64,000 nt of DNA from Ulvibacter algarum (GTDB lineage: Bacteria > Bacteroidota > Bacteroidia > Flavobacteriales > Flavobacteriaceae), in NCBI GenBank assembly GCA_947488905.1, contig CANLBJ010000004.1, positions 62,001-126,000 on the forward strand, in the 5' to 3' direction. The notes below the pieces were generated by a model. The model made no database searches. It had not been told where the DNA came from and saw only the letters and a list, made by a program, of their open reading frames with translations. The translations under genes and the position numbers were made by a program. Each line of letters begins with the position of its first letter. Position 1 is the first letter of the stretch. This document shows, one piece after another, positions 38,351 to 54,507 of this stretch.

Positions 38351-38770
38351 TTAATATTTGAAACGCTCCCATTTTATAAGCATAAACTTATCTCCTAATT
38401 CTGTTACAATAACTCCCGCTCCTCTTATATTTTCTGAATTGCTAAAGTATTCTCCAAGTTCTATTGCATTTAATATTTTATACGTGGGATGGTAATTAGA
38501 ATTATAAGGTCGTTTTATATTATATTTTTTTACCCAATTCATGATGCTCACATGAGAAATACCAAGAATACGTTCAATCTCACGGTAGGTAAGGCCTTCT
38601 AGATAAAGCTGAAGTGATTTATTAACGTAATAGTCATCAATTTTTTTTCCTATCTTATTGACAGAGAAGAAGTAATTGCACGCTTTACATTTATAGCGTT
38701 GTCTATTATTTACAACTCCGCTTTTTATTTTTTTATCAGATCCACAGTTTGGGCAGGCTTCAATTTTCAT
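38351..38770 (-). CDS. IS1/InsA-type zinc-ribbon and HTH protein, apparently domesticated
   Basis: 139 residues. A zinc ribbon opens it (CPNCGSDKKIKSG...RYKCKACNYFF, four Cys as in the InsA N-terminus). A helix-turn-helix follows (LEGLTYREIERILGISHVSIMNWVKKY), and then about 45 residues (YHPTYKILNAIELGEYFSNS...RGAGVIVTELGDKFML) that match no transposase catalytic domain. No DDE residues, inverted repeats or second ORF are seen, so this is not an intact IS. It sits beside the porin operon and could be a regulator derived from a transposase. Function is inference. Confidence 0.7.
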   Translation of the reverse strand: MKIEACPNCGSDKKIKSGVVNNRQRYKCKACNYFFSVNKIGKKIDDYYVNKSLQLYLEGLTYREIERILGISHVSIMNWVKKYNIKRPYNSNYHPTYKILNAIELGEYFSNSENIRGAGVIVTELGDKFMLIKWERFKY

Positions 38771-38908: not shown

Positions 38909-38951
38909 TGATAAACATCATTTTTTTTGTGTCATATGACTCTTATTTTCG
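38909..38951 (+). promoter_or_regulatory. FNR-like box and -7 element of the first UspA gene
   Basis: TGATAAACATCA (38909-38920) is centred 33 bp upstream of the centre of TATTTTCG (38944-38951), which has one mismatch to TANNTTTG. ATG at 38972. Confidence 0.75.
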
Positions 38952-38957
38952 TTGTAT

Positions 38958-38969
38958 AAAATTTCAGAA
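38958..38969 (-). repeat. TTCKGAAATTTT recurring motif (minus orientation)
   Basis: TTCTGAAATTTT on the minus strand ends 3 bp before the UspA ATG at 38972, inside its leader. Confidence 0.4.
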
Positions 38970-38971
38970 AC

Positions 38972-39805
38972 ATGAAAAAAATACTTCTCCCTACAGACTT
39001 TTCTGCAAGCTCTAACAATGCAATAGATTATGCGATGCATTTTTTTAAGAATTGGAAATGTGAATTTTACATTTTAAATGTCCAGAAAATTTCTGAATAT
39101 GTAAGTGACGACCTTGCTTCTGGTGCTAAATCTGATAGTGTTTATGACAGTATTGCGTTTGATAATAAAAAGGCAATTAATGACCTAGTTATCAAATTAA
39201 AAGAGGAACACGCTAATGAGAATTATGATTTTAACGGTTTATATGACTTTGACAATTTTGTATCTGCTGTTAATGAAGCGGTTTCTTTTCATTCTATAGA
39301 TCTAATAGTCATGGGTAGTAATGGCGCTACGGGAGCTAAGGAAACTCTTTTTGGTAGTAATACGCTAAAGGTTATTAGAAACTCAGAATGTCCTACGCTA
39401 ACCATACCAGAACATTTTAAGTTTAAGAATATTAAGAGTGTATTATTTTCTACTCAAAATTGTGAAGATTTTTCACAATCTGGGATCAAGGTTTTTACTA
39501 AAATTCTAGATATGCATCAACCAGTGCTTAATGTTTTAGACATTGATGAAAATGCACATGATATGTCTATTAAAGAAGATAATCAATGTCTAAAGGAGCT
39601 ATTTGTTGATTATGAGTATACGTATTACAGCCTAAATACAATACCTGGTTTAATTGCTGTAAATACCGCTACACAGCTTTTAAAAGTAGATTTACACGCT
39701 GTGTTTATAAAGAAAGAAACGTTCTTAGATCGTTTGCTCTTAGGCTCAGACACTTCAAAGTTGGTTTATAGAACTTTAATTCCATTACTGTTTTTACACA
39801 GATAA
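38972..39805 (+). CDS. Universal stress protein (tandem UspA domains)
   Basis: 277 residues. The first Usp domain begins KKILLPTDFSASSNNAIDYA and holds the nucleotide-loop IDLIVMGSNGATGAKETLFGSNTLKVIRNSECPTLTIP (shortened), that is the G-x2-G-x9-G(S/T) ATP-binding pattern. The second domain (about 150-277) is degenerate and lacks that loop. UspA-like proteins bind ATP and act in stress survival. It is the only one of the five Usp genes on the plus strand. An FNR-like box lies in its promoter. It is convergent with ldhA. Confidence 0.88.
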   Translation: MKKILLPTDFSASSNNAIDYAMHFFKNWKCEFYILNVQKISEYVSDDLASGAKSDSVYDSIAFDNKKAINDLVIKLKEEHANENYDFNGLYDFDNFVSAVNEAVSFHSIDLIVMGSNGATGAKETLFGSNTLKVIRNSECPTLTIPEHFKFKNIKSVLFSTQNCEDFSQSGIKVFTKILDMHQPVLNVLDIDENAHDMSIKEDNQCLKELFVDYEYTYYSLNTIPGLIAVNTATQLLKVDLHAVFIKKETFLDRLLLGSDTSKLVYRTLIPLLFLHR

Positions 39806-39849
39806 TTTACCCCCAAACTCTAAAGTATATTTATAGTTTAACACAAATA

Positions 39850-39884
39850 ATAACGAGCTTTTATTAATTATGAAAGCTCGTTAT
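39850..39884. terminator. Hairpin overlapping the 3' end of the D-lactate dehydrogenase gene
   Basis: ATAACGAGCTTTT (39850-39862) pairs with GAAAGCTCGTTAT (39872-39884) with one G-T pair. It lies between convergent genes and includes the last codons of the minus-strand gene. Confidence 0.55.
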
Positions 39885-40857
39885 GTGCGTGAATACCTTT
39901 TTGCCAATCGTTTAAATTGTTAAAAGTAGCTGCAGCAATGTTCTGTAGCGCCTCATTAGTTGCAAATGCTTGATGAGGTGTTAGTAATACCAATGGATGC
40001 TTTAATAAGCTATCTAACAATTGATCTTCTGGTTTATCTTTAGACTTATCATAAAAAAATATTCCATTTTCATTCTCATAGACATCTGTTGCGTACCCGC
40101 TAATTTTAGCACTGTCTAGTGCATTTAAAATTGCTTTAGTGTCAACTACGGCTCCTCTGGCTACATTAACTATAACTGGTTTCTGTTTCATTTTTTCTAG
40201 ATAATGGGTATCAAAAAAATGATGTGTTTTTGTGGTAAGCGGCAAACAAGTAAAGATTACCTGTGCTTCATTTGCTATAGCATCTTTAGAAACATACTCA
40301 ACATTATAAAAATTAATGAGTCTTTTATCACTGCTTATATCATTTGCAATAATTTTACAATTAAAACCGTGGAGTATTTTAACTAACACACTACCTATTT
40401 TACCGGTTCCTAATACGCCTACTGTTTTATTATTTAAATCAAACCCAACCAAACTATCTAGCAAAAAATTATATGTTCTTGTTTGCTGTTGTGCAAGGGG
40501 TATCTTTCTATTTAAAGCTAACAATAAAGCTATAGCATGTTCTGCAATAGCGTTAGGTGAATAATCTGGAGTATTTGCTACTCGTATACCAAGTTTATTG
40601 GCTGTCTTTACATTTATATTATCATGACCTGCAGACCTAAGAGTGATGTACTTTACCCCAAAAGTTTTAAGTTTTTCTAAAACAATAGAGGTCGCTTTAT
40701 CTGCAGAAAAAATTGAAACTGCATCTTGATTAATTGCTAACAAAGCCGTGTTAGACGTGAGTCTTTCTGGTGTGAAGGTTAATTCATGTTTCCCTTCGTT
40801 TGTTTTTTTTAGCAATTCAATCTCAAAGGGTTTTGCGCTATATATAAGTACTTTCAT
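39868..40857 (-). CDS. ldhA: D-lactate dehydrogenase (2-hydroxyacid dehydrogenase family)
   Basis: 329 residues. Substrate Arg in TLRSAGHDNIN, catalytic residues in NVARGAVVDTKAIL (Arg) and the later Glu/His (LTPHQAFATNEA with the active His), Rossmann loop VGVLGTGKIGSVLVKIL. The segment YATDVYENENGIFFYD is typical of fermentative D-LDH. It reduces pyruvate to D-lactate with NADH. Last gene of a three-gene operon driven from an FNR-like box at 42114; it overlaps the lipoprotein gene by 1 bp. Fermentative NADH recycling fits a low-oxygen program (inference). Confidence 0.85.
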   Translation of the reverse strand: MKVLIYSAKPFEIELLKKTNEGKHELTFTPERLTSNTALLAINQDAVSIFSADKATSIVLEKLKTFGVKYITLRSAGHDNINVKTANKLGIRVANTPDYSPNAIAEHAIALLLALNRKIPLAQQQTRTYNFLLDSLVGFDLNNKTVGVLGTGKIGSVLVKILHGFNCKIIANDISSDKRLINFYNVEYVSKDAIANEAQVIFTCLPLTTKTHHFFDTHYLEKMKQKPVIVNVARGAVVDTKAILNALDSAKISGYATDVYENENGIFFYDKSKDKPEDQLLDSLLKHPLVLLTPHQAFATNEALQNIAAATFNNLNDWQKGIHAHNELS

Positions 40858-41498
40858 TATTCGAGTAGTAAAAAGTTATTCTCTTTGAGCGTTGTAAATA
40901 GTGTCTTTATGTAAGCGTTTATGTTTTTATTAAATTTAACAGCATCTATTAGCTCAATATTTCCACGCCATATAAGTTCGCGCTCTTTACCGGGACAAAT
41001 ACAAAATAGAGATGTCTCTGTAGTATAAACTTGATAGCGTTCTTCTTGTTCTTTTAAATATTCATGTTGATGCTTGTAGTAGTAGTCTTCAAAAGTTTGA
41101 TTTTGATTTGAGAGATTTTGATATGCATTTACTAGCGTCACCTTACTCTCTTTACCAGTGATTTTTGCAAGTAATATAGCATCAAAACCAGATTCTAATA
41201 ATTTATCTTCAATGGTGTTTAATTGTTCAATGGACTGCTCATTATCTGAAAAAGAAGTTTCAAAAAAATCTATACTCTTCACAGCAAGCACCTCATTTTT
41301 TTCTAATGAGGAGACCATCTTAGTCTCAAAAGCTCTTCTTAGTTCTTTATTTGCTGAAATACCAACAACCAAAACTTTATTAGCTTGAAAAAAATCATTG
41401 TCAGGACTCTTATATTGCTGAGTAACTTTTGTGCTACTGCAACCTATAATCAATGAAGTAATGATTAATAGAGTCAATAAAAGTGTTGTTTTTTTCAT
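40857..41498 (-). CDS. DUF4136-like lipoprotein
   Basis: 213 residues with a lipoprotein signal (LLIITSLIIGCSSTKVTQQYKSP). NKVLVVGISANKELRRAFETKM and LESGFDAILLAKITGKES suggest the DUF4136/lipoprotein-type alpha/beta fold. CICPGKERELIWRGNIELID near the C-terminus contains two extra cysteines. Its stop overlaps the ldhA start by 1 bp (TAATG). Envelope role unknown. Confidence 0.6.
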   Translation of the reverse strand: MKKTTLLLTLLIITSLIIGCSSTKVTQQYKSPDNDFFQANKVLVVGISANKELRRAFETKMVSSLEKNEVLAVKSIDFFETSFSDNEQSIEQLNTIEDKLLESGFDAILLAKITGKESKVTLVNAYQNLSNQNQTFEDYYYKHQHEYLKEQEERYQVYTTETSLFCICPGKERELIWRGNIELIDAVKFNKNINAYIKTLFTTLKENNFLLLE

Positions 41499-41533
41499 AG
41501 TTGTATATTTTAAAAAACTAGATAGTCTTTAAG

Positions 41534-41971
41534 TTATAGTATTTTTTTTTGCTTACTTTTTTTCATAATTTCTGCAAGCATTTTAAAAATATGGCTTTTG
41601 GTCTTTTTAATATCTGCGTGAAAATCCATCTCTTCTATAACTAAAGAGTAATGCTCATTTTTAAACAGCCGCAACTCCTCTTCATCATTGCCACTATCAA
41701 TTAACTTATCTAAATTACTATTATGATTATTAAATTTTTCTGTTAAAATCGATAACCTTTTAGAATGCTCTGTAAGCTCTTTTATAATAGCATTAGTCTC
41801 TAATGAGTTTTTTTTGTAGAAAAACTCTATAGTGTGATCGCTCACTAGGTTTTCTAAAAAACGAAGTTCATCTTTTAAAAAATCAAGATCTAAAATAGAA
41901 GTAGTGATATCTTTATGAAGACCAGCAGTGTCTTGCCATTCTATAAATTTAAAATGAGTTTTTGAAGCCAT
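41534..41971 (-). CDS. Small helical coiled-coil protein
   Basis: 145 residues, almost wholly helical and charged (for example LDFLKDELRFLENLVSDH and LRLFKNEHYSLVIEEMDFHADIKK, shortened), with a Lys-rich end (MKKSKQKKIL). No signal peptide or recognised family. First gene of the operon with the lipoprotein and ldhA genes, 35 bp upstream of the former. A small hairpin GAAGAT/ATCTTC lies in its leader near 41994. Confidence 0.5.
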   Translation of the reverse strand: MASKTHFKFIEWQDTAGLHKDITTSILDLDFLKDELRFLENLVSDHTIEFFYKKNSLETNAIIKELTEHSKRLSILTEKFNNHNSNLDKLIDSGNDEEELRLFKNEHYSLVIEEMDFHADIKKTKSHIFKMLAEIMKKSKQKKIL

Positions 41972-42082
41972 AACAAGTAGAATTTAAGGGAAGATTGTGA
42001 TCTTCTGTGACTAATAATATTATTATCATTATTTAAAAAAGATTAGCCCTATTTTTTAAAGTAGAACTTATCGTTTATACTA

Positions 42083-42125
42083 TAAATATAACGCACTCCA
42101 TTAATTTTATAAATGATATTTATCA
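42083..42125 (-). promoter_or_regulatory. FNR-like box and -7 element of the coiled-coil/lipoprotein/ldhA operon
   Basis: TGATATTTATCA (42114-42125) is centred 33 bp from the centre of minus-strand TATATTTA (42083-42090), which has one mismatch to TANNTTTG. The ATG at 41971 leaves a long leader. The 267-bp gap (41972-42238) otherwise holds only an AGCTTTTTAAAAAGCT palindrome at 42125-42140. Confidence 0.75.
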
Positions 42126-42238
42126 GCTTTTTAAAAAGCTTTATCAGTCGTTATAAAAACAATAAATAATTTTAAATAACAACTCTTAAAGATCCATCTA
42201 TCAAGCCTTTTTTTTTCTAGGTATTGCTACTTAGATTA

Positions 42239-43609
42239 TTAAAGATTTATCTCAATTATTTGGTTTAGTTTAGAAATAACAACATCCCATTTATATGTAT
42301 CCTTAAGTTTTACTCTTAAAGTATTTAAGGCATTAGCCTCGCCGTGAATTAAATATGTGCTTTGAGGTGTGTTTTTAATTTCACTAAGCCAACTAACTAT
42401 ACCTTCTTGATCTGCGTGTGCAGATAAACTATCTATATGCTCCACCGTTGCTTTTACGGGATAGTATTTGCCAAAAAACTTGAGTTCATGAGCACCTTCT
42501 AAAAGTTGGCGACCTCTAGTACCTTCTGCTTGGTAGCCAACAATTAAAACTGTTGTAGACTTCTCATCAATTAATTGTTTTAAATACGTAAGTACTCTAC
42601 CACCAGTAATCATACCGCTACCAGCAATAACAATTTTAGGTCTTGGATCATCAATTGTTTCCCAAGTTTCTTTGTATGAAGTGATTATATTCATACGGTT
42701 TTTCATATTGTTAAATTCTGTTGGAGCAATTTTATGCCATGAAGCAAAACGCTCAAAAACATTTAGAACGTTATTACCCATTGGACTATCAATAAAAATT
42801 GGAATATTCGGGATTTTGCCCTCGTCATATAATTTCCATAATAAAAACATCAATGTTTGCAAACGCTCAACAGCAAAAGAAGGTATGATTAAAGCACCTC
42901 TATTATGTACTGTTTTATTAATGACTTCAATTAGTTTTTTTGAAACTTCCTCTTTTGGATGTAGCTTATTTCCGTAGGTACTTTCTACAAACAAATAATC
43001 TGCTTTTTGAGGTTTGCTAGGCGGAAATAATAAAACATCTTCTTCTCTCCCTATATCTCCAGAAAATACAAACATTTTTCCTGAAATATTAAGCTCAATA
43101 AAAGTAGCTCCTAAAATATGCCCATTATAATTAAAGCGATATTTTATGTCTTCTGAAATGTTATACCATTGATCTTTTTGTGAGGCTTCAAATTTTTTAA
43201 TGGTTTGCTCAGCATCTTTTAATGTATAAAAAGGTAACGCGGGGTGATGTTTTGTGAAGTTTTCTTTATTTGCTCTTTCTGCATCTTCTTCATTTATTTT
43301 TGCACTGTCTAACAATATTATTTTTGCAATTTCTAGGGTTGGTGGTGTTCCTATAATTTTACCGTTATAACCCTGTTTAACTAACCTTGGCAAATAACCT
43401 GTATGGTCTAAATGCGCGTGAGTTAATAAAACAATATCAATTGTAGAAACATCAAAATTAAAATCCTTCCAGTTTAATTCTCTTAATTCTTTTAAACCTT
43501 GAAACATACCGCAGTCAATTAATATATTTTTTTGAGGTGTTTCAAGTAAAAACTTAGAGCCAGTCACTGTTTGTGAAGCTCCTAAAAAATGGATTTTAAT
43601 TTTGCTCAT
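42239..43609 (-). CDS. MBL-fold beta-CASP RNA metallo-hydrolase
   Basis: 456 residues. The metallo-beta-lactamase motif THAHLDHTGYLP (HxHxDH) is near residue 60. FSGDIGRE supplies the next Asp, and the beta-CASP motifs follow: FVESTYGNKLHP, PSFAVERLQTLMFLL, VIAGSGMITGGRVLTYL and the final His in HIDSLSAHADQEG. The architecture is that of CPSF73/YSH1-type exo/endoribonucleases, shared with bacterial proteins of the MBL-CASP family. It probably acts on RNA. It lies 1 bp after the ATP-cone gene, in the putative FNR-like operon. Confidence 0.88.
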   Translation of the reverse strand: MSKIKIHFLGASQTVTGSKFLLETPQKNILIDCGMFQGLKELRELNWKDFNFDVSTIDIVLLTHAHLDHTGYLPRLVKQGYNGKIIGTPPTLEIAKIILLDSAKINEEDAERANKENFTKHHPALPFYTLKDAEQTIKKFEASQKDQWYNISEDIKYRFNYNGHILGATFIELNISGKMFVFSGDIGREEDVLLFPPSKPQKADYLFVESTYGNKLHPKEEVSKKLIEVINKTVHNRGALIIPSFAVERLQTLMFLLWKLYDEGKIPNIPIFIDSPMGNNVLNVFERFASWHKIAPTEFNNMKNRMNIITSYKETWETIDDPRPKIVIAGSGMITGGRVLTYLKQLIDEKSTTVLIVGYQAEGTRGRQLLEGAHELKFFGKYYPVKATVEHIDSLSAHADQEGIVSWLSEIKNTPQSTYLIHGEANALNTLRVKLKDTYKWDVVISKLNQIIEINL

Positions 43610-43610
43610 T

Positions 43611-44447
43611 TCAGTTTGTATTAGAAAGCATAGAAACTTCGGTTAGTATTTTTGTTTTACGTTTTTCAGAAATCCCCAAATGATCTAAATAAAAGTTATC
43701 ATCAACTAATTGTCTGCACAGCACTACTTTTCTACTTAGCAAAAATTGTTTTTCGCGTTTTGTTAATAAAGTTGAAACTGTAATGGGATAGAGACCTAAT
43801 CTATCTATACGCTCTTTAAGGCCGTTCTCTTTTGGGTAATCCCAACTTAACAAATAAAGACCAACGCATTTTGCGTAAGTAATCGCATCACTAGTAAAAC
43901 GTGTATTAGTAACTACCCAACCTTCATTAGGGCATAAAGGCGTGTTATTGTATTGTGCTATGATATCCTTATAACGAGAGTTTATATATAGCGGGACTTT
44001 AATATTACAGGTGCTTGTTTTTTCGCTATGAAACTTACATTCTGCTATAATGTGCTGTTTGTGTTTTATAGCAATTACATCTACCTCATGATTTACACAT
44101 TTACCTTGCAAAATTTTACCCACCTCTACCTTGTAACCAGAATATTCCATTAATGCCCCAATAAAATTCTCAAAAGGAAAACCTGTTGGACCTAATTCAT
44201 AAATAGCTCTTTTTAGTTTGTATTTAGAAGCAAAAATAGGTTGGCTTTTTTTTAATAATGCAAACGCTCTATTGTATATTTCTTTTGTAGATATACCTTG
44301 GTATAACTCATCTCTAACTATATTAATAATATTATCTACTACAAGCTTATCTGCGCCACTTTTAAATAGACTGTTGCGGAGTTTAGCTAGTGAAAAATCT
44401 GCTTTCTCTCCAGATGATTTAATAACTTGAAAAGCTTCTTTTTTCAT
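43611..44447 (-). CDS. ATP-cone plus restriction-endonuclease-like protein
   Basis: 278 residues. Residues 1-95 form an ATP-cone: VIKSSGEKADFSLAKLRNSLFKSGA, then IFASKYKLKRAIYELGPTGFPFENFIG (shortened). Residues about 105-190 carry a PD-(D/E)xK nuclease core with FENFIGALMEYSGYKVE, HEVDVIAIK and IIAECKFH (D...ExK). A C-terminal helical segment (LLTKREKQFLLSRKVVLCRQLV, LDHLGISEKRKTKILTEV, shortened) looks like a helix-hairpin-helix DNA-binding tail. It is probably a DNA or RNA nuclease sensing ATP/dNTP; known relatives are poorly studied. 1 bp upstream of the MBL gene. Confidence 0.75.
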   Translation of the reverse strand: MKKEAFQVIKSSGEKADFSLAKLRNSLFKSGADKLVVDNIINIVRDELYQGISTKEIYNRAFALLKKSQPIFASKYKLKRAIYELGPTGFPFENFIGALMEYSGYKVEVGKILQGKCVNHEVDVIAIKHKQHIIAECKFHSEKTSTCNIKVPLYINSRYKDIIAQYNNTPLCPNEGWVVTNTRFTSDAITYAKCVGLYLLSWDYPKENGLKERIDRLGLYPITVSTLLTKREKQFLLSRKVVLCRQLVDDNFYLDHLGISEKRKTKILTEVSMLSNTN

Positions 44448-44499
44448 TATTAACGTTAAAGATTATTATAGGTTTTGCAAACTAAGCCAAGCATAGCTA

Positions 44500-44511
44500 T
44501 GACATTAATCA
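44500..44511 (-). promoter_or_regulatory. FNR-like box overlapping the stop of a UspA gene
   Basis: TGACATTAATCA covers the TGA stop of the 44509-45357 gene. Unlike the other sites it has no -7 element at 33 bp. It may drive the ATP-cone/MBL pair, or may be fortuitous. Confidence 0.45.
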
Positions 44512-45357
44512 GTCTATCTTTGGTAAAATAAGAAAAGGTAAGTTTACATATCTAGCAATATTTTTTACTGTTGCTTCTCTAAATAATCTTACTATAGCAT
44601 TATGTTTATAGAATATCATTGACACCATATCAATATCTTCATTGCCTAAATAATTGCTTATTGCATCAAAGTTTTCTCTCTCATCTAATAAGAAAGTGTT
44701 TTCAGGTTTTTCAGACTTTAACAAGTCAAATAATTGATTAAAATTAGCCAGTTGCTCTTCACTCATATCTACATTTTCGTTAACGTGAACTACTTTTATA
44801 GTAGAGTTGTTTAAAGATGAGATAGCGACTAGAGGCGCTAGTTCTTCTTTGTTATAAGACCTTTTATATCCAGTTGCAAAGGCAATTTTATTAATGGGTT
44901 TAAAATCTAGATCTTCTGGGATTATTAATAATGGAGTCTTTTTAATTTTCTGAATCATTGACAGTGTATTACTACCCATTAGTATATTACTTGCCCCAGT
45001 ACTACCCTTACTCCCCATAACCACATAGTGTGCTTTTTCTTTTTCAATTAATTTATTAATTGCTCTAGAGAGTGTTAAAGAAGTTGCTATCGCTTGATAG
45101 CTATGATTATCATTAGCGGTATCTAACCTAATCTCGTGTATTATTTCTTCACATCTAGTTTCGGTAGTGTTATAAAGTTCTGTAACAACTGCCTCTGTTT
45201 TTTCTATATCTATTCTACTAGTAAGGCTAGAAACTTGACTTTCAAAAGAGTGAATGATAATGAAATTGCACTTTTCAGCAGCAAATATTTGTGTTGCAAA
45301 ATAAAAGGCACTGTAAGCGTTTCTTGAAAAATCTGTAGGTATTATAATTGTTTTCAT
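44509..45357 (-). CDS. Universal stress protein (tandem UspA domains), cluster copy 2
   Basis: 282 residues. TIIIPTDFSRNAYSAFYFAT opens the first domain. VVMGSKGSTGASNILMGSNTLSMI gives the ATP-binding pattern (G-x2-G-x9-G-S). The second domain (about 150-282) is degenerate. Third Usp of the operon 47082-44509, 10 bp after the previous gene. It is a diverged paralogue of its neighbours, so the set grew by tandem duplication. Confidence 0.85.
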   Translation of the reverse strand: MKTIIIPTDFSRNAYSAFYFATQIFAAEKCNFIIIHSFESQVSSLTSRIDIEKTEAVVTELYNTTETRCEEIIHEIRLDTANDNHSYQAIATSLTLSRAINKLIEKEKAHYVVMGSKGSTGASNILMGSNTLSMIQKIKKTPLLIIPEDLDFKPINKIAFATGYKRSYNKEELAPLVAISSLNNSTIKVVHVNENVDMSEEQLANFNQLFDLLKSEKPENTFLLDERENFDAISNYLGNEDIDMVSMIFYKHNAIVRLFREATVKNIARYVNLPFLILPKID

Positions 45358-45367
45358 TGCTATTATA

Positions 45368-46222
45368 TTAGTTGTGTTGTTTTTCTACCGAAGGGATCAC
45401 TAAAAACGGAACGTTAGTGTGATATATTAATTGATTTATGACAGGCTTGAAAAGCAGATTTTCAAAAAAATTATGTTTGTTATGAATCATCACAACAAAA
45501 TTTATCTTCTTTTTAACCTGAAATTTTTCTACAGCGTCTACTATATCTGTATCATCTGTTAGTTCAAATAGATGGGTGTTGTCAATAAAAAATGCATCTA
45601 AAAAACCTTGCGCTTCTTTTTGCTCACTAGTTAAAGGAGTACCATAATAAGCATTTAAAATATGTAAGTTAGAACTGTGATAGTCGCACAATTCACGAAG
45701 CATTTTTAAATATTGATTTTTACTGTCAAATTTATAATCTGTGGCAAAAAGTATTTCTTTTAATGGCTCATATTTAAAACCTGAAGGCACTGCTAGTAAA
45801 GGACATTTTAGTTTTTTAATAGCATACATTGTATTTGTACCTATAAAAATTTCTTTAGCACCAGTAGCGCCTTGAGTACCCATTATTACATAATCAATAT
45901 CGTGTTTTTCAACAATATATGACATTTCAGAAACCAACATATTTAATGACACAATTGTTGTAAAACTATGATTGTCATTTTTAAACTCTTTTTTAATACG
46001 GTTTTCTAAAGCCTCTATACGCTCTTCTGCTTTTTTATGCACTACATCTTGCATGATTAATGCTGAGTAGCTGTCTACCATACTGCCTGCACTTACCACA
46101 GGCACAGAATAAGCGTGCACGAGAAAAAACTCGCAAGTAGTATCTTTTAATAAATGCATTGCATAATCAATGGCATTATTTGAACTCTCTGAAAAATCTG
46201 TAGGTAATAAAATACGTTTCAT
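45368..46222 (-). CDS. Universal stress protein (tandem UspA domains), cluster copy 3
   Basis: 284 residues. KRILLPTDFSESSNNAIDYAM and YVIMGTQGATGAKEIFIGTNTMYAI (G-x2-G-x9-G-T) mark the first, ATP-binding-type Usp domain. The second half lacks the loop. Its N-terminal half is very close to that of the 38972 gene (TDFS-x-SSNNAIDYAMH). Second gene of the Usp operon, with 14 bp before and 10 bp after it. Confidence 0.87.
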   Translation of the reverse strand: MKRILLPTDFSESSNNAIDYAMHLLKDTTCEFFLVHAYSVPVVSAGSMVDSYSALIMQDVVHKKAEERIEALENRIKKEFKNDNHSFTTIVSLNMLVSEMSYIVEKHDIDYVIMGTQGATGAKEIFIGTNTMYAIKKLKCPLLAVPSGFKYEPLKEILFATDYKFDSKNQYLKMLRELCDYHSSNLHILNAYYGTPLTSEQKEAQGFLDAFFIDNTHLFELTDDTDIVDAVEKFQVKKKINFVVMIHNKHNFFENLLFKPVINQLIYHTNVPFLVIPSVEKQHN

Positions 46223-46236
46223 AATATATGATTTGG

Positions 46237-47082
46237 TTATCGCTGTATACTTTGCATTACTAAAAAAGGAATTTTTATATCAATCCCTATTTTTTCTATA
46301 GTAGAATGATATAAGACATTTTCTAGATAAGAATGTCTATGGTTTACCATCACAAGCATATCATATTTCTTATCATTTAATTCTTTGTTGATACCTTGAG
46401 CTAGGTCCTTTTCTTTAATTTGTAAATAAGCCTTTTTATTATCTCTAAAACAATGGTCTAAAAACAAGCGGTTATCTTCTTGTCTATGTGAGTATTTTTT
46501 AAATTCTGAAATAAAAAGCATTTGAATATTTGACACAAATGATTTTGCCATCGTGCTTAATAAATTTAATTCTCTACGTTTAAACGGGATCAAATAATCT
46601 GTAGGGAATAATATATTTTCTGGAGGAAAACCGTGATAACCTATTGGTATTGCTAATACCGGGCATTGTACATATTTAATTACCTGTAAGGTTTGACTAC
46701 CAAAAGTGATCTCTTTATTTTGAGTTTTACCCTTGGTACCCATTACTACAATATCTATATTATCTCTTTCTACAATATCATTAGTCTCATCAACAAGACT
46801 CCCAAAACGGGCTTCAAAATTATAAGTGTGTTTTGGGTTTGCCGTTTTTTTAATCATTACAACAACTTCTTTTTGAAGCTGTGCTTCTACACTATTGCGA
46901 TACTTATCTTTAAACACTTCAAAAAACTCGCGGTCCATCTCCATGGTATTATTATAAACCTCATCTGCAAAAGCATGCATGACAATAAACTCACAAGTAT
47001 CATATTTAAATAACTCTAGAGCATACTCAATGGCGTTCATTGAAGTTTCTGAAAAATCTGTTGGTATTAATATTTTTCTCAT
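46237..47082 (-). CDS. Universal stress protein (tandem UspA domains), cluster copy 4
   Basis: 281 residues from ATG 47082. An in-frame start at 47139 is rejected because it lies upstream of the predicted transcription start and inside the FNR-like box. MRKILIPTDFSETSMNAIEYA and IVVMGTKGKTQNKEITFGSQTLQVI give a somewhat altered ATP loop (G-x2-G-x9-G-S with TQNK). Second domain degenerate. First gene of the Usp-Usp-Usp-nuclease-MBL operon and preceded by the best box/-7 pair in the region. Confidence 0.87.
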   Translation of the reverse strand: MRKILIPTDFSETSMNAIEYALELFKYDTCEFIVMHAFADEVYNNTMEMDREFFEVFKDKYRNSVEAQLQKEVVVMIKKTANPKHTYNFEARFGSLVDETNDIVERDNIDIVVMGTKGKTQNKEITFGSQTLQVIKYVQCPVLAIPIGYHGFPPENILFPTDYLIPFKRRELNLLSTMAKSFVSNIQMLFISEFKKYSHRQEDNRLFLDHCFRDNKKAYLQIKEKDLAQGINKELNDKKYDMLVMVNHRHSYLENVLYHSTIEKIGIDIKIPFLVMQSIQR

Positions 47083-47102
47083 AATGTAGTGTTTAACAAT
47101 CT

Positions 47103-47145
47103 CAAAGTTAGAGCTAAACAATACGTTATAAAATGACATTTATCA
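47103..47145 (-). promoter_or_regulatory. FNR-like box and -7 element of the Usp operon
   Basis: TGACATTTATCA (47134-47145) is centred 33 bp from minus-strand TAACTTTG (47103-47110), a perfect TANNTTTG. The predicted transcription start is about 47099 and the ATG is at 47082. Confidence 0.85.
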
Positions 47146-47176
47146 CTCTTTAGCCTTAACATGGAGGCTTAAAAAA

Positions 47177-48010
47177 CTATTCGTGAAGTATTAAAAAAGG
47201 AATATTAATATGATAGCTAATTTTTTCAACTTGAGGTTTGAAGAGTATACGTTGATAAAAATTTAAATTTTTAGCAACCATAGCTATAAAATCTACTTTT
47301 AGACTTGTAACAAATGACTGTATGGCATGTTCTAAATTTTGATCTTCAGTTTCGTGAAAACTATTAGAGGTATGCAACATATGCTTTAAAAGCTTTTTAT
47401 TACTATTCTGAAAGCTGTTTAATGATTTTGCTGACTGTTTAGCATATAAAACTCTAACAGTAGAATTGTGTTCCTCTGCAACTGATATTAAGGTTTCTAT
47501 TACTTTGCTATTGTACGTTAAATTAAAGTCTGTAGGAAAACCAATGTTCAATGGTATTTTAAACGAGGCTTCTTCTGGAATGACAAGTATAGGTGTTCTA
47601 ACTCGAGTGATCACAGAACCCGTTTTACTGCCTATGGTCATCTCTTTTAAACCAGAAGCACCTTTTGTTCCCATTACCACAAAAGATATAGCGTGCTCTT
47701 TAATATAAAACCTAATGCCCTCTATAAAAGTAGTTTTTAATATAGCACTATTAAAATGATGCTTAGCGTTAGGACAACATTTTTGAACCCTGTTTACCCA
47801 CTCAGTCATCTGAGATTTTAAATCATCAGAGATTTCTTTTTTAGCAGAAATACCAAAACTATGAAGATTTGCATCTGCGTTAATTTGCATAGTGATATCA
47901 ACATGCAAAAAATGAAATGACACCTCTTGATTTTCAAAAAATCTCAATGCATAGCTCGTGGCATTCCAGGCATTATCAGAAAAATCTGTAGGTATTAAAA
48001 TATGCTGCAT
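47177..48010 (-). CDS. Universal stress protein (tandem UspA domains), cluster copy 5
   Basis: 277 residues. QHILIPTDFSDNAWNATSYAL and FVVMGTKGASGLKEMTIGSKTGSVI keep the ATP-binding loop. The C-terminal domain is degenerate. It has its own FNR-like promoter at 48028-48070 and is separated from the next Usp by 94 bp, so it is transcribed separately from the other three on this strand. Confidence 0.86.
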   Translation of the reverse strand: MQHILIPTDFSDNAWNATSYALRFFENQEVSFHFLHVDITMQINADANLHSFGISAKKEISDDLKSQMTEWVNRVQKCCPNAKHHFNSAILKTTFIEGIRFYIKEHAISFVVMGTKGASGLKEMTIGSKTGSVITRVRTPILVIPEEASFKIPLNIGFPTDFNLTYNSKVIETLISVAEEHNSTVRVLYAKQSAKSLNSFQNSNKKLLKHMLHTSNSFHETEDQNLEHAIQSFVTSLKVDFIAMVAKNLNFYQRILFKPQVEKISYHINIPFLILHE

Positions 48011-48027
48011 GATACTGTTTATTAAAA

Positions 48028-48070
48028 CAAATGTATCAATGTAAAAAAGAGTGTGATATGATAAAAATCA
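48028..48070 (-). promoter_or_regulatory. FNR-like box and -7 element of UspA copy 5
   Basis: TGATAAAAATCA (48059-48070) is centred 33 bp from minus-strand TACATTTG (48028-48035), a perfect TANNTTTG; 17 bp to the ATG. Confidence 0.85.
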
Positions 48071-48079
48071 GTTTCCTAA

Positions 48080-49129
48080 TTATTCTACTTCTTCAAGCGC
48101 TTGCAGTTTTAAAATTTTAATATTTCTACCTTCAATTTCAATAAAGCCTTTCTTTTTAAATTCTGACAATGTTCTAATCAAACTTTCTGTTGCTATACCT
48201 GCAACACTGGCTAGATCATTACGCGAAATCTTAATAGCTTCGTTAGGATTTTTATTAAGTATGCGTGTAAATTGAAGAATAGTCTGTGCTGTTTTTTTTC
48301 TAACAGAGCTATAGGCCATTTGTAAAAGTTGATGTTTTGCTTCTGAAATATCTTTAGATAAAATATTCATCAACTCTATTGAGATATTTTTGTTTTTGCT
48401 TAAAATCTCTACTAAATTTTCTTTAGAAACGCTAGCTACTTTTACATCATCTACAGCTGTAGTTGTCTCTTGATAAGGAAAATTTTCTGCAAATGATGTG
48501 AAGCCTAAAAAATCATCTGCTTTATGTAGTGCAGTAATTAATTCTTTACCGCTCTCTTCCATTTTATGGCTTTTAACAATACCATTTAATATTAAATATA
48601 TGTTTCTTGAAAAAGCACCTTCTTTATAAATCACCTCTCCTTTTTTAAACTCTTTAATTTGTCCAGTATCGTCAAAAAGGTTTTTTAATTCGTTTAGGTT
48701 TCTTATGTCATCTTCTTCTGGAGTAGCACTAGACTTAGCAGTTACCATATTTGCTATAATTTCGGCTTTAGCTAGCCTACTTTCTACAGCGCTTATTAAC
48801 TCTTCTTCTTCAAAAGGTTTTGTAAGGTAGTCATCTGCACCTTGGTCCATCCCTTTTCTAATTTCTTTATGTTCTGTTTTAGCAGAAAGAAAAATAAAGG
48901 GTATTTGTGACGTAGTTGGGTCTGTTGAGATGGCTTTTAAAACCCCATACCCATCAACTTCTGGCATCATAATATCACAAACAATGATATTTGGCAGTAT
49001 TTTTTTAGCCATTTCGATCCCTATTTTCCCGTTTGGAGCTGTATGCACAGTGTAGTTTGAGAGCTCTAAAAGTTCTGCTGTATTTTCACGTAGGGCAGTA
49101 TCATCTTCAATAAGTAAAATAGTGTTCAT
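48080..49129 (-). CDS. Response regulator fused to a Crp/Fnr-type regulator (REC-cNMP-HTH)
   Basis: 349 residues. Residues 1-125 are a receiver domain: acidic EDD at 8-10, phospho-acceptor D52 in IIVCDIMMPEVDG, Ser in FIFLSAKTE and Lys in DYLTKPF. Residues about 145-260 are a cyclic-nucleotide-binding-like beta-barrel (FKKGEVIYKEGAFSRNIYLILNGIVKSHK, shortened). The C-terminal HTH_Crp follows (ISRNDLASVAGIATESLIRTLSEF). In the recognition helix, Glu and Arg occupy the positions that contact G-A in FNR and CRP sites. No Fe-S cysteines of FNR are present. It is encoded 11 bp after its kinase, so phosphorylation probably controls it. It is the natural candidate regulator of the TGAY-N4-RTCA boxes (inference). 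Confidence 0.92.
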   Translation of the reverse strand: MNTILLIEDDTALRENTAELLELSNYTVHTAPNGKIGIEMAKKILPNIIVCDIMMPEVDGYGVLKAISTDPTTSQIPFIFLSAKTEHKEIRKGMDQGADDYLTKPFEEEELISAVESRLAKAEIIANMVTAKSSATPEEDDIRNLNELKNLFDDTGQIKEFKKGEVIYKEGAFSRNIYLILNGIVKSHKMEESGKELITALHKADDFLGFTSFAENFPYQETTTAVDDVKVASVSKENLVEILSKNKNISIELMNILSKDISEAKHQLLQMAYSSVRKKTAQTILQFTRILNKNPNEAIKISRNDLASVAGIATESLIRTLSEFKKKGFIEIEGRNIKILKLQALEEVE

Positions 49130-49140
49130 AATATCTGTTG

Positions 49141-50646: not shown

Positions 50647-50679
50647 CTAGTAAAAATACCATTTTAAATTTCTTATCCC

Positions 50680-50722
50680 TGACAAATATCATAGTATGAT
50701 GCGTTTTTCAAGCTTATTTTTA
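50680..50722 (+). promoter_or_regulatory. FNR-like box and -7 element of the DUF3298/trx/deo operon
   Basis: TGACAAATATCA (50680-50691) is centred 33 bp upstream of TATTTTTA (50715-50722, one mismatch). On the other strand the box overlaps a -7-like TATTTG segment for the kinase operon (TTG of a -33 at 50709-50711), so binding might repress kinase transcription. Confidence 0.7.
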
Positions 50723-50786
50723 CTCGTAGTAAAGAGTCATTTTATAAATTATAAAGCACTTTTTAAAAACAATTAATTTATTACAT

Positions 50787-51680
50787 ATGAAATATCTAAG
50801 TATCACATTTTTACTATTAGTTTTTATATCGTGTAAGAACGAAAAAAAAGAAATTCAAACTGTTGTAGATAAAGGTCTTGAGATTGCAACACCAGAAACG
50901 TTTGAAGAAACTCTGCCTTTTGATACTATATATTCTATTAGCGAAGCAGAGCTTAATAAAACCAAACAGGTGGTTATTAAAAGACAAACACTTTTAGACA
51001 AAAAAGATGATAAACTAGAATTAAAAGAGCTTATCACTCAAAAGACATTTAAAAAAGATGAAGACTTATATTTAATAGATTATAAATACCCACATTTAAA
51101 CGAGAATCTTAAAGAGTCTTATCATAACTTTAATGAATACCTTGAAGATACATACATGAATATTGCAGGTGTAGAAGCAAGTATTCTTGAAGATAAAGAA
51201 ATGATATGTGATACTCTTAGCATAAACCGTTTTAGAGAGCAAAGATTAGTAGATTATAAAATGTATAATTTAAACGAAACGCTAATAAGTGTATTATTTT
51301 ATAAAGAGAACTACTACTCAGGAACACTTCATCCTTCTTATAGTTTTGACTGTCTTAATTTTGATTTACAACGTTCTGTCTTTATGGGGTATGAAGACTT
51401 CTTTAATGAAGGGAGCGAACAAGAAATGACTACAATTTTAAATGAGGTCATTTCAGAAAAAAGAGATTTAAATGATATCTATTTTGACTGTTGGGAAATA
51501 TCTAATGATGACTTTTTTGAATACAAAGACAATTTTGTAGTAGATGACTATAAAGTAGAATATTACTTTGATGATTGTGTAATTTGCCCATCATATACTG
51601 GTACTTTTTCTGTAGTAATACCGTTAGAAAGGTTGTTACCAGTGCTTAAAAAGTATGAACTTAACCCATTAATTTTATAA
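50787..51680 (+). CDS. DUF3298 (RsiV-like) lipoprotein
   Basis: 297 residues with a lipoprotein signal (ITFLLLVFISC). From about residue 85 it follows the DUF4163/DUF3298 layout: YHNFNEYLEDTY, YSGTLHPSYSFDCLNFDLQR, GYEDFFNE, and a C-terminal YKVEYYFDDCVICPSYTGTFSVVIPL resembling the Y-x-x-G-P-Y-x-x-G motif of DUF3298, as in anti-sigma factor RsiV and lysozyme-inhibitor-like proteins (both segments abbreviated). First gene of an operon with trx, deoC and deoD. Role in the cluster unknown. Confidence 0.7.
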   Translation: MKYLSITFLLLVFISCKNEKKEIQTVVDKGLEIATPETFEETLPFDTIYSISEAELNKTKQVVIKRQTLLDKKDDKLELKELITQKTFKKDEDLYLIDYKYPHLNENLKESYHNFNEYLEDTYMNIAGVEASILEDKEMICDTLSINRFREQRLVDYKMYNLNETLISVLFYKENYYSGTLHPSYSFDCLNFDLQRSVFMGYEDFFNEGSEQEMTTILNEVISEKRDLNDIYFDCWEISNDDFFEYKDNFVVDDYKVEYYFDDCVICPSYTGTFSVVIPLERLLPVLKKYELNPLIL

Positions 51681-51683
51681 CAG

Positions 51684-51980
51684 ATGAAAAATAGTTTTAA
51701 AAATATTATTAATTCTGAAACGCCAGTACTCATTGACTTTTTTGCAGATTGGTGTGGACCTTGTAAAGCATTAGCACCTATATTAAAACAAGTAAAAGAA
51801 GAGTTAGGTGATCAAGTAAAAATAATAAAAATTGATGTTGACAAAAACCAGCCTCTAGCAGCGCAATACCAAGTACGCGGAGTACCTACAATGCTATTAT
51901 TTAAAAATGGAAATAAAGTATGGCAGCAATCTGGAGTGCTACAAAAAGATGAAATAGTACGCATCATTAAATCTAAATAA
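51684..51980 (+). CDS. trx: Thioredoxin
   Basis: 98 residues, the single-domain thioredoxin fold with active site DWCGPCKAL near residue 25, conserved VDKNQPLA, cis-Pro in VRGVPTMLLF and FKNGNKV. Full-length and cytosolic (no signal peptide). It would reduce protein disulfides; the arsenate reductase elsewhere in this window is a possible client, but there is no direct link. The gap is 3 bp to the preceding gene and 1 bp to deoC. Confidence 0.95.
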   Translation: MKNSFKNIINSETPVLIDFFADWCGPCKALAPILKQVKEELGDQVKIIKIDVDKNQPLAAQYQVRGVPTMLLFKNGNKVWQQSGVLQKDEIVRIIKSK

Positions 51981-51981
51981 A

Positions 51982-52644
51982 GTGACCAATCTTCACACAT
52001 ATATAGAGCATACGCTTTTAAAGCCAACGGCAACTGTAAAAGATATTATAGAGCTTTGTGATGAAGCTAAAAAATATGATTTTCACGGTGTTTGTGTTAA
52101 TAGTAGCTATGTACATCTAGCCGCAAATGAACTAAAAAATCATCCTTCAAAAGTCATTGCTACCATTGGTTTCCCACTAGGAGCATCTTCTACAAAAGCA
52201 AAAGTTACAGAAGCTAAGAAAGCCGTTAAAGATGGAGCAGATGAAATTGATATGGTGATTAATTTGGGCTTTTTTAAATCACAGAACACAAAATATGTAA
52301 GCAATGAGATAAGGGCTGTAAAAAAAGCAATAGACCGTCGTCAATTAAAAGTTATCATAGAAACGTGTTACCTTAATGAGGCAGAAATAATAATGGCTTG
52401 CGAAATGGTACGTCTTGCGGGAGCAGATTTTGTAAAAACCTCAACAGGTTTTGGAGATAAAGGTGCCCAATTAAAAGATGTAGAATTAATGCGTAAAAAA
52501 GTAGATGGTAAAATAGGCATCAAAGCCTCTGGCGGTATTAAAACAGCAAACCAAGCCATTGCTTTTATTATAGCAGGAGCAACAAGAATAGGAACCTCTA
52601 ATGGGGTAACTATTGTTTATGACCCAAAAAATCACGAAGAATGA
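51982..52644 (+). CDS. deoC: Deoxyribose-phosphate aldolase (GTG start)
   Basis: 220 residues. HTLLKPTAT near the start, DGADEIDMVINLG, Schiff-base Lys in DFVKTSTGFGDKGA and GIKASGGIKT complete the DeoC motifs. It cleaves 2-deoxyribose 5-phosphate to glyceraldehyde 3-phosphate and acetaldehyde. Starts at GTG 51982, 1 bp after the thioredoxin stop, and overlaps deoD by 4 bp (ATGA), so all three are translationally coupled. Confidence 0.95.
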   Translation: MTNLHTYIEHTLLKPTATVKDIIELCDEAKKYDFHGVCVNSSYVHLAANELKNHPSKVIATIGFPLGASSTKAKVTEAKKAVKDGADEIDMVINLGFFKSQNTKYVSNEIRAVKKAIDRRQLKVIIETCYLNEAEIIMACEMVRLAGADFVKTSTGFGDKGAQLKDVELMRKKVDGKIGIKASGGIKTANQAIAFIIAGATRIGTSNGVTIVYDPKNHEE

Positions 52645-53345
52645 GCACACATATTGAAGCCAAAAAAGGCGAAATAGCAGAAAACGTTTTATTACCAGGA
52701 GACCCTATGCGCGCTAAGTGGATTGCAGAGAACTTTCTAGAAAACGCTAAACTATACAATGATGTTAGAGGTATGCTAGGCTACACAGGCACTTATAAAG
52801 GCACTCCAGTTTCTGTGCAAGGCACAGGTATGGGAATCCCCTCTGCGCTTATTTATTGTCATGAGCTAATAACTAATTATGGCGTTAAAAACCTCATTAG
52901 AGTAGGTAGTGCAGGTTCTTACCATAAAGATGTAAAACTGCGAGATGTTGTTATAGCAATGTCTGCCTCTACAACTTCTGGTATTAATAATTCGCGTTTT
53001 ATAAATGCAGATTATTCACCCACAGCAAATTTTAATTTGTTTATGAAAGCCGCAACATACGCTAAAGACAACAACATTTCTATTAAAGCCGGTAATGTGC
53101 TATCTAGTGATGAGTTTTATGAAGACAACACTAACGCCTATAAATTATGGGCAGAATATGGAGTGTTATGTGTTGAGATGGAAGCAGCGGGTTTATATAC
53201 CATAGCAGCAAAACATAATGTAAATGCTCTAGCTATTTTAACAATTTCAGACTCATTAGTTACTAAAGAAGCAACCTCTGCAGAGGATAGAGAAACAAGT
53301 TTTTCTACAATGATAGACATTGCTTTAAACACATTAATAGATTAA
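52641..53345 (+). CDS. deoD: Purine nucleoside phosphorylase, DeoD type
   Basis: 234 residues. LPGDPMRAKWIAENFL (phosphate binding), LIRVGSAGSYHKDVKLRDVVIA (abbreviated), SSDEFYED and GVLCVEMEAAGLY match hexameric DeoD. It phosphorolyses purine (deoxy)nucleosides to base plus (deoxy)ribose 1-phosphate, feeding DeoC after mutase conversion. Its TAA stop shares bases with the stop of the convergent mscS-like gene. Confidence 0.94.
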   Translation: MSTHIEAKKGEIAENVLLPGDPMRAKWIAENFLENAKLYNDVRGMLGYTGTYKGTPVSVQGTGMGIPSALIYCHELITNYGVKNLIRVGSAGSYHKDVKLRDVVIAMSASTTSGINNSRFINADYSPTANFNLFMKAATYAKDNNISIKAGNVLSSDEFYEDNTNAYKLWAEYGVLCVEMEAAGLYTIAAKHNVNALAILTISDSLVTKEATSAEDRETSFSTMIDIALNTLID

Positions 53346-54244
53346 GAGTTAATTTTAATTTCAGGTATTCTTATAACTTCTACCGTTGTTGAAGCTAACT
53401 CTACAAGCCCATCTGTTTTATTTATTTTATCATGTATCGCATTATGCAAAAGACTTTTTATCATTCTTCTTTTCTTATAATCTACAATGTATCTCAAATT
53501 AAATTTAACCCAATTGTCTGTAAGAGTTATTGCTAGTGTAGGATCAACTACTGCATCTTCAATATAAAATTTATTTACAATTTCTCCCCATTTTTCTTTT
53601 GAAGCTGCGGTGTATTCACTTAATATTTCAGAAGCTACAGAGATCATTATTTGTTTTGTTATTTCTAGATCAGACTTATAGCGTATCATTATATCAAGCT
53701 CGTCCCAGATAAACGGAAAGTCTTTTGAGTAATTATATACAGGGCCTTTAAAGACAAAAGCATTGCTCAACTTTACAATGCGGCCACTATAATTATCACT
53801 TGTAACCCATTGTCCTATCTCCATCATTGTTGTGTAAATACTATCAATATCAATGACATCTCCTTTAATACCGTTAATTTCTATACGGTCTCCAGGAGCA
53901 TAAACTCTCACTAAAAAAATATAAATAGACCCAGCAAGACTTAAAAAAAGCTCTTGGAGCGTGATAGCTATTCCTGCAGAAAATAAACCCAAAGCTAAGG
54001 TAAAATCTTTAATGCTTCCTGTAAAATAAGAGATGGTTAAAATGATGATAAATAAATAGCCAAAAATCTCTACTGCCTTTTGTGCCTTGTAGCGAGATGT
54101 GGCAACGGGTAATCTCTTTTTTAAAAAACTACGTAAAAATTGAATCACCAAAATAATAAATGCTAACCACACTAAATATTTAATAATACTTGTTGCAGTA
54201 GGGTGTTCACTAAACCAGTTTGAGATATATTTTAAAGATTCCAT
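53342..54244 (-). CDS. Small-conductance mechanosensitive channel (MscS family)
   Basis: 300 residues. Three N-terminal helices, then GIAITLQELFLSLAGSIYIFLVRVYAPGDRIEI (abbreviated), the TM3-type segment with pore-lining Gly/Ala pattern, and the MscS beta-domain IKGDVIDIDSIYTTMMEIG. It would release solutes under hypo-osmotic stress. Its stop overlaps deoD by 4 bp. Its promoter has an FNR-like box (54351-54362). Confidence 0.85.
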   Translation of the reverse strand: MESLKYISNWFSEHPTATSIIKYLVWLAFIILVIQFLRSFLKKRLPVATSRYKAQKAVEIFGYLFIIILTISYFTGSIKDFTLALGLFSAGIAITLQELFLSLAGSIYIFLVRVYAPGDRIEINGIKGDVIDIDSIYTTMMEIGQWVTSDNYSGRIVKLSNAFVFKGPVYNYSKDFPFIWDELDIMIRYKSDLEITKQIMISVASEILSEYTAASKEKWGEIVNKFYIEDAVVDPTLAITLTDNWVKFNLRYIVDYKKRRMIKSLLHNAIHDKINKTDGLVELASTTVEVIRIPEIKINS

Positions 54245-54319
54245 ATTAAAAAGCTTGCTTCGTTTTAAGGTTTAAAAAAGGTGCGATTAATAAAACATAA
54301 ATAACTTGCATTTATAAAG

Positions 54320-54362
54320 CTAAAATAGTTGCTGTTATACTTTGTATTTATGACAATTATCA
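54320..54362 (-). promoter_or_regulatory. FNR-like box and -7 element of the mscS-like gene
   Basis: TGACAATTATCA (54351-54362) is centred 33 bp from minus-strand TATTTTAG (54320-54327), which has one mismatch. Confidence 0.75.
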
Positions 54363-54422
54363 TAACAATTACACACATTTATAACGCTTAGCAAGTTGAT
54401 AAATAAACACTTATTTATTTTC

Positions 54423-54434
54423 TTCTGAAATTTT
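54423..54434 (+). repeat. TTCKGAAATTTT recurring motif
   Basis: TTCTGAAATTTT lies in the divergent spacer (54245-54522) between the two FNR-like boxes. Confidence 0.45.
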
Positions 54435-54464
54435 AAGACTTTAAACAATAGGGCTTTCATTTTA

Positions 54465-54507
54465 TGATATTGGTCATTCTATAACTTATTAAATAATCTC
54501 ACTTTTG
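54465..54507 (+). promoter_or_regulatory. FNR-like box and -7 element of the ABC-exporter operon
   Basis: TGATATTGGTCA (54465-54476) is centred 33 bp upstream of CACTTTTG (54500-54507, one mismatch). The TTG at 54505 is part of the -7 element, so the true start is ATG 54523. Confidence 0.75.

Follow-up and report, generated by a model that had tools for sequence, protein, structure and literature searches.

A Crp/Fnr-type promoter code of fixed spacing around a sensor kinase and a receiver-Crp fusion in Flavobacteriaceae

We analysed a window of 64,000 bases (bases 62001-126000 of contig 4; 33.6% G+C) from the 3.55 Mb genome of Ulvibacter algarum, in which the palindrome TGAY-N4-RTCA (the box) recurs at a fixed distance from an element resembling the -7 element of Bacteroidota promoters (Table 1). 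The gene families that an initial annotation had named as controlled by these boxes were recovered with Pfam, namely five Usp proteins, a 2-hydroxyacid dehydrogenase (a probable D-lactate dehydrogenase), beta-CASP, ATP-cone, DUF3298, thioredoxin, DeoC, a PNP-family protein, MscS, HlyD and FtsX; the ABC ATPase gene at 56875-57543 was left out of the Pfam scan. Missing from the earlier list were the two genes between the boxes at 48080-50646, which encode a sensor kinase and a protein that fuses a receiver to a Crp-type regulator (the receiver-Crp fusion). Since the listed start of the open reading frame at 46237-47139 falls within a box, its true start is probably an internal ATG near 47082.

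Table 1. Paired sites and genes of the island (positions are those of the window; aa, amino acids).
Feature	Position	Strand	Remarks
Box TGATAAACATCA + -7-like TATTTTCG (one mismatch)	38909..38951	+	Upstream of Usp 38972-39805
Box + TATATTTA	42083..42125	-	Upstream of 41971-39868 genes
Palindrome, no paired -7 element	44500..44511	no strand	On 3' end of Usp 44509-45357
Box + perfect TAACTTTG	47103..47145	-	Upstream of Usp genes 47082-44509
Box + perfect TACATTTG	48028..48070	-	Between receiver-Crp gene and Usp 47177-48010
Box + TATTTTTA	50680..50722	+	Upstream of DUF3298-thioredoxin-DeoC-PNP genes; directed away from kinase gene
Box + TATTTTAG (one mismatch)	54320..54362	-	Upstream of mscS 54244-53342
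Box + CACTTTTG (one mismatch)	54465..54507	+	Upstream of HlyD/FtsX/ABC exporter
Receiver + cNMP_binding + HTH_Crp_2 fusion, 349 aa, candidate activator	48080..49129	-	Asp52; recognition helix ATESLIRT
PAS-PAS-HisKA-HATPase sensor kinase, 501 aa	49141..50646	-	His66, Gln86 in first PAS
Usp, 277 aa	38972..39805	+	Pfam
Four Usp genes (47177-48010, 46237-47082, 45368-46222, 44509-45357)	44509..48010	-	Pfam
beta-CASP metallo-hydrolase + ATP-cone/Mrr-like genes	42239..44447	-	Pfam; recurring neighbours in relatives
145 aa, lipoprotein-like 213 aa and 2-hydroxyacid dehydrogenase genes	39868..41971	-	Pfam
DUF3298, thioredoxin, DeoC and PNP-family genes	50787..53345	+	Pfam

The eight boxes reported earlier, at 38909, 42114, 44500, 47134, 48059, 50680, 54351 and 54465, are all present at these positions, and all are intergenic as claimed apart from the one at 44500, which overlaps the last bases of a Usp gene. 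In total the window holds 12 such palindromes against 3.7 expected, a number reached in 0 of 100 shuffles. Seven of the eight boxes carry a -7-like element at 33 base pairs (bp) centre to centre, which corresponds to a gap of exactly 23 bp. At this gap we count 7 pairs of box and TANNTTTG with at most one mismatch, 2 of them with none (47103-47145 and 48028-48070), whereas the other gaps from 5 to 60 give a mean of 0.29 pairs and a maximum of 2 at the same tolerance. The two perfect and five one-mismatch elements described before are the same seven sites, each oriented to the gene named for it (judged by eye). The palindrome at 44500 has no -7 partner, again as described, and is probably not a promoter site; the window's other four palindromes (507, 2817, 3637 and 55651) have none at gap 23. 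Transcription from the site at 47103-47145 could possibly extend beyond the Usp genes into the ATP-cone and beta-CASP genes (44447-42239).

The pair is enriched throughout the genome, which had been named as a check: its exact form occurs 8 times against 0 in the reversed control, and 16 times against 0 with TANNTTTR as the element. When any gap from 8 to 38 is allowed, the genome yields 19 matches, 8 of them at gap 23, and the reversed control yields 13, so that only the fixed gap is distinctive. Conservation in relatives, on which the initial annotation had staked its proposal, is also seen. The pair is present in 134 of 149 Flavobacteriaceae genomes (own genome counted here and in the next two comparisons), with 1154 exact sites against 22 reversed-pattern controls. 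It is found in exact form in 25 of 39 relatives and in 63 of 158 genomes of the phylum, divided into 36 of 39 in the own class and 27 of 119 in other classes. In 20 neighbourhoods of the fusion gene, chosen by hand and non-randomly among 66 fusion-bearing genomes, gap 23 accounts for 50 exact pairs, and the other gaps average 0.44. The family-wide promoter code is real, and the sites throughout the genome rule out a purely local regulon; the word "local" in the earlier description does not stand. At G000:C6:157399-157472 a single palindrome is flanked on either side, at gap 23, by a -7 element, in divergent arrangement (L185, L186), and the same two-way palindrome occurs at G021:C16:32086-32159 and G042:C2:256994-257067.

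A sequence logo was drawn from 123 paired sites of the 20 neighbourhoods, allowing one mismatch in the element and none in the box. In 98% of these sites the box is followed by T; it is preceded by C in 57% or A in 34%, and the last base of the -7 element is G in 56% or A in 40%. The sites thus read [CA]TGAY-N4-RTCAT, with an outer base unlike that of the E. coli FNR consensus TTGAT-N4-ATCAA. We also sought TTTG, the -33 element, between the box and the -7 element of the 123 sites and saw no enrichment. The Flavobacterium psychrophilum promoter map places a like element, TAnnTTTG, at -12 to -5 of sigma-A promoters (PMC9723704). Its centre is at -8.5 and therefore that of the box at -41.5, the class II position. 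Given the fixed gap of 23, the lack of a -33-type element and the published -7 position, the sites are predicted to be class II promoters at which the box of a Crp/Fnr-type activator fills the -33 slot, as had been proposed, and the promoter code is well supported. Crp and Fnr have 0 mentions in the main text of that promoter study (PMC9723704).

The candidate activator of the island is the receiver-Crp fusion. Its cNMP_binding domain and Crp-type helix-turn-helix (Pfam 4e-17 and 1.7e-12) place it in the Crp/Fnr superfamily, and its receiver (Pfam 1.9e-27, with Asp52), together with an adjacent kinase in 20 of 20 neighbourhoods, identifies it as a two-component response regulator. An iron-sulfur cysteine cluster is absent from its sequence, the one Cys (position 51) being in the receiver. 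The label "FNR-like" given to the regulon is therefore apt as far as a Crp/Fnr-type activator is meant, but it fits neither this cysteine-poor candidate nor the outer bases of the sites. Kinase, fusion and box follow one another in the same direction in all 20 neighbourhoods, with a Usp gene next in 19, and the conserved two-component regulator is central in the main cluster. Among the fusion-bearing genomes with complete site lists, to which this count was confined, the 20 kb on either side of a fusion gene contain 43 of 166 exact sites in a set of 15 genomes (2.0 expected) and 8 of 59 in 11 further genomes that are more distant or additional (0.56 expected). Fusions of near full length are present in 14 of the 21 genomes that belong to the same class but lie outside the order, and in neither of the 2 other genomes of the order; the best match in the 119 genomes of other classes (2.7e-39) covers the receiver part. 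A set of receiver-Crp fusions is only 41-43% identical to that of the window (14 rows, e.g. G021:C16:14639-15673); in 10 of these 14 genomes it stands beside a closer fusion. Among the matches listed in a search of open-licence papers, none described a receiver-Crp regulon in Bacteroidota.

The best solved relatives of the first PAS domain of the kinase are FixL (1.9e-15) and E. coli Dos/DosP (about 1e-12). Thirteen of its 15 structure matches are FixL or Dos/DosP, the other two being a blue-light photoreceptor (2.7e-4) and a protein without an assigned cofactor. His66 aligns with the haem-ligand His of FixL and Dos and is invariant in 21 of 21 kinases; the distal Arg of FixL is kept in 17 of the 21 and is Gln86 in the kinase of the window. 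Among nine other PAS_9 matches in the genome (with L094 dropped and the window's own first PAS, L190, not included) the ligand His is found in one (L188), is absent in five and could not be placed in three with too short an alignment; it is therefore no general PAS feature. The exception belongs to a 1902-residue open frame (G000:C3:21918-25340; L188, L189, L191, L192) that contains four or more PAS_9 domains, among them the one with the haem-ligand His.

We then considered the genes downstream of the sites, several of which, outside the window, were named by eye. By this naming, sites in the own genome stand upstream of a cytochrome c-fasciclin-NosZ operon, of ccoS/ccoN of a cbb3 oxidase, of genes for a BLUF-type protein with DnaJ, of OsmC-like proteins, of a thioredoxin-like gene, and of a Pta-like operon and a divergent 405-aa gene. 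Further sites precede a pyridine-nucleotide oxidoreductase with a ferredoxin (the latter by eye), a P-type ATPase, a further Usp and a 138-aa gene (L002), for which the 20 neighbourhoods contain no relative at E 1e-6. The distance from one site (L006) to the MCRA-family gene downstream is about 380 bp, which makes this link weak. In the neighbourhoods, the first genes after the 123 sites comprise 47 with a best match to a window Usp, 8 cases with no gene called and 61 unlike the window proteins. These 61 include a hibernation-factor family (8 members, S30AE in the single member scanned); Hsp20 proteins (5) and CcoI-like ATPases (3), with one member scanned in each case; HemN and a cbb3 subunit, both named by eye; and a family of 133-146 aa with 14 members, of which the one scanned had no Pfam match. 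The genes of this last family (L081:7461-7868 and 13 relatives) are mostly divergent from the kinase gene with a box upstream; in the window no such gene stands beside the kinase gene, and DUF3298 takes its place. The low-oxygen meaning put forward earlier gains from this gene content (cbb3 and NosZ genes in the own genome, a HemN gene in a relative), and it is still one that we infer.

The boxes probably have a second user. An FNR-like protein of 233 aa (L045, G000:C3:186153-186851) adjoins ccoI, and its recognition helix, ATELLIRT, shares the Glu-x-x-x-Arg pattern with that of the fusion. Three of the four FNR cysteines align in L045 (C9, C12 and C111), the third N-terminal Cys being Asn, and these three cysteines and the Asn are kept in 12 of 12 FNR-like proteins, own included. 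If a cluster is bound, its fourth ligand would be unusual. We discounted three other HTH_Crp_2 proteins of the genome, L046, L047 and L048, by eye; the recognition helix differs in two of them, and L048 is below the cut-off and resembles another regulator family. When genomes are split by the presence of the fusion (E<=1e-75) and of the FNR-like protein (E<=1e-43), the mean number of sites per genome is 13.8 with both regulators (n=36, range 3-26), 8.9 with the fusion only (n=30, range 2-24), 6.5 with the FNR-like protein only (n=55, range 1-15) and 1.2 with neither (n=28, range 0-9). The difference between fusion only and neither has p=1.6e-9 by a statistic that ignores phylogeny. Genomes at least 90% complete give the same ranking (13.8, 9.1, 6.2 and 0.8), and since ten genomes of at least 3 Mb with neither regulator have a mean of 1.3 sites, genome size does not explain the split. 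The site flanks differ slightly between the groups: the second base after the box is C or G in 38% of sites in one group against 10% in the other (p=4e-4; 48 fusion-only and 94 FNR-only sites, among the matches listed). The fusion-only genomes with sites weaken the case for a classical FNR as the only user of the boxes.

Taken together, we regard it as probable that a low-oxygen regulon of DosR-like kind is governed by a fused FixJ/FixK-type regulator, itself activated by a FixL-like kinase, with the FNR-like protein as a second user of the sites. Oxygen would inhibit the PAS kinase, probably via haem in its first PAS domain; at low oxygen the kinase would be released and would phosphorylate Asp52 of the fusion, whose Crp part could then bind [CA]TGAY-N4-RTCAT as a dimer centred at -41.5. 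The bound dimer would recruit RNA polymerase to the TANNTTTR element, substituting for the absent -33 contact. In the island, the main user of the boxes would be the fusion encoded between them, and the FNR-like protein beside the cbb3 genes might add another input at common sites. The putative targets would serve survival and energy gain without oxygen: Usp proteins, a ribosome hibernation factor, Hsp20, lactate dehydrogenase, cbb3 oxidase and nitrous-oxide reductase.

Several other explanations of the sites have to be weighed against this proposal. The box and the element are short and A+T-rich, as is the genome, but chance or a compositional artefact is ruled out by the reversed-pattern controls (22 against 1154 in 149 genomes) and the spacing controls, in which gap 23 stands out alone; with only 3 of the 123 sites inside an open reading frame of at least 120 aa, its probability is negligible. 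A role of the boxes as repressor operators is very unlikely. Their overlap with the -33 region could let a bound dimer obstruct RNA polymerase, but the exact spacing of 23 and the absent -33 element suit activator-dependent promoters, and a repressor does not need fixed spacing. Use of the boxes by the FNR-like protein beside the cbb3 genes alone (or by other Crp-type proteins where it is absent), with the fusion acting on other targets and its location coincidental, would account for the same spaced sites in the 55 FNR-like-only genomes (mean 6.5), the similar recognition helix and the three cysteines kept in all 12 proteins. We judge it improbable, since the 30 fusion genomes without an above-threshold FNR-like orthologue still have 2-24 sites, sites cluster around the fusion gene and site flanks differ between the genome groups. 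A regulon driven by the fusion in which the kinase responds to another input (redox state, nitric oxide, respiratory inhibition or starvation) strikes us as somewhat unlikely: Usp, hibernation factor and Hsp20 are general stress genes and the distal Arg is Gln in the window and missing in 4 of 21 kinases, yet the best solved PAS relatives are O2-sensing haem domains and cbb3, NosZ and HemN genes (named by eye) are among the targets.

A number of observations count against an oxygen-controlled regulon shared by the fusion and the FNR-like protein. We placed the regulator thresholds by eye where the lists show gaps, and the split covers the fusion and the FNR-like protein only, with other Crp-type proteins of the fusion-only genomes outside it. 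Five genomes with neither regulator have 2-9 sites (9 in G073, 7 in G171, 5 in G162, 3 in G076 and 2 in G110), and completeness is 73-88% in three of them, G073, G171 and G076. Beyond the family the exact motif is rare, also in genomes that carry the fusion (0 sites in G241 and G289), no site lies near the fusion gene in 6 of the 11 and 1 of the 15 genomes, and an activating-orientation site directly upstream of the kinase gene is seen in 1 of 20 neighbourhoods only. Both regulators probably share sites, and either could act at a given promoter. The haem in the first PAS of the kinase is a prediction from sequence, if a probable one, and with Gln86 in place of the distal Arg the gas response of the window's kinase may differ.

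The proposed system can be compared with known ones. FixL detects O2 through haem, and FixJ has a single conserved target, fixK (PMC4999443). The present system resembles FixL-FixJ-FixK in the haem-PAS signature of its kinase, in having a receiver protein and a Crp-type activator that lacks the FNR cysteines, and in its cbb3 targets. It differs in that receiver and Crp output are one protein, so that there is no FixJ-to-fixK transcription step, in an output domain that is not of the FixJ type, in belonging to another phylum and in the mostly Usp and dormancy targets of the island. Usp genes are targets of Anr and FNR. With proteobacterial FNR and Anr the sites share TGA..TCA half sites in a palindrome and the class II position; unlike them, the fusion has no iron-sulfur cysteines, the outer base is A/C..T instead of T..A and the -7 element is the TANNTTTR of the Bacteroidota sigma factor. 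DosR belongs to the NarL type and has a different box, and DosS carries its haem in a GAF domain. DosS/DosT-DosR of mycobacteria and OsdKR of Streptomyces are likewise low-oxygen two-component systems beside core targets with several Usp genes, and Hsp20, a P-type ATPase and ferredoxin are further targets in common with DosR. Six Usp proteins are reported for the DosR regulon (PMC2914252), and OsdR is reported to be a regulator that recognises the same element as DevR and adjoins its conserved core (PMC5069765). Here the output domain is of the Crp type, not the NarL type, and we do not claim common descent. The F. psychrophilum study reports cbb3 induction under oxygen limitation (PMC9723704).

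A tentative extension, which seems to us a fair possibility short of a probability, is that Bacteroidota independently built a DosR-like dormancy regulon in which a FixL-like haem kinase acts on one protein that plays the roles of FixJ and FixK and two oxygen inputs, the second through the FNR-like protein with its three cluster cysteines, converge on a rigid -41.5 code. If true, the same dormancy toolkit (Usp, hibernation factor, Hsp20) would be oxygen-controlled by a different regulator than in actinobacteria, over a kinase-to-DNA route one step shorter than FixL-FixJ-FixK. With this analysis, low-oxygen life in a large group of environmental bacteria can be approached through a predictive promoter code, a candidate pair of kinase and regulator and a list of targets. 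At the edge of the island, a 139-aa protein (38351-38770) has a zinc ribbon and a helix-turn-helix and is similar to part of a transposase.

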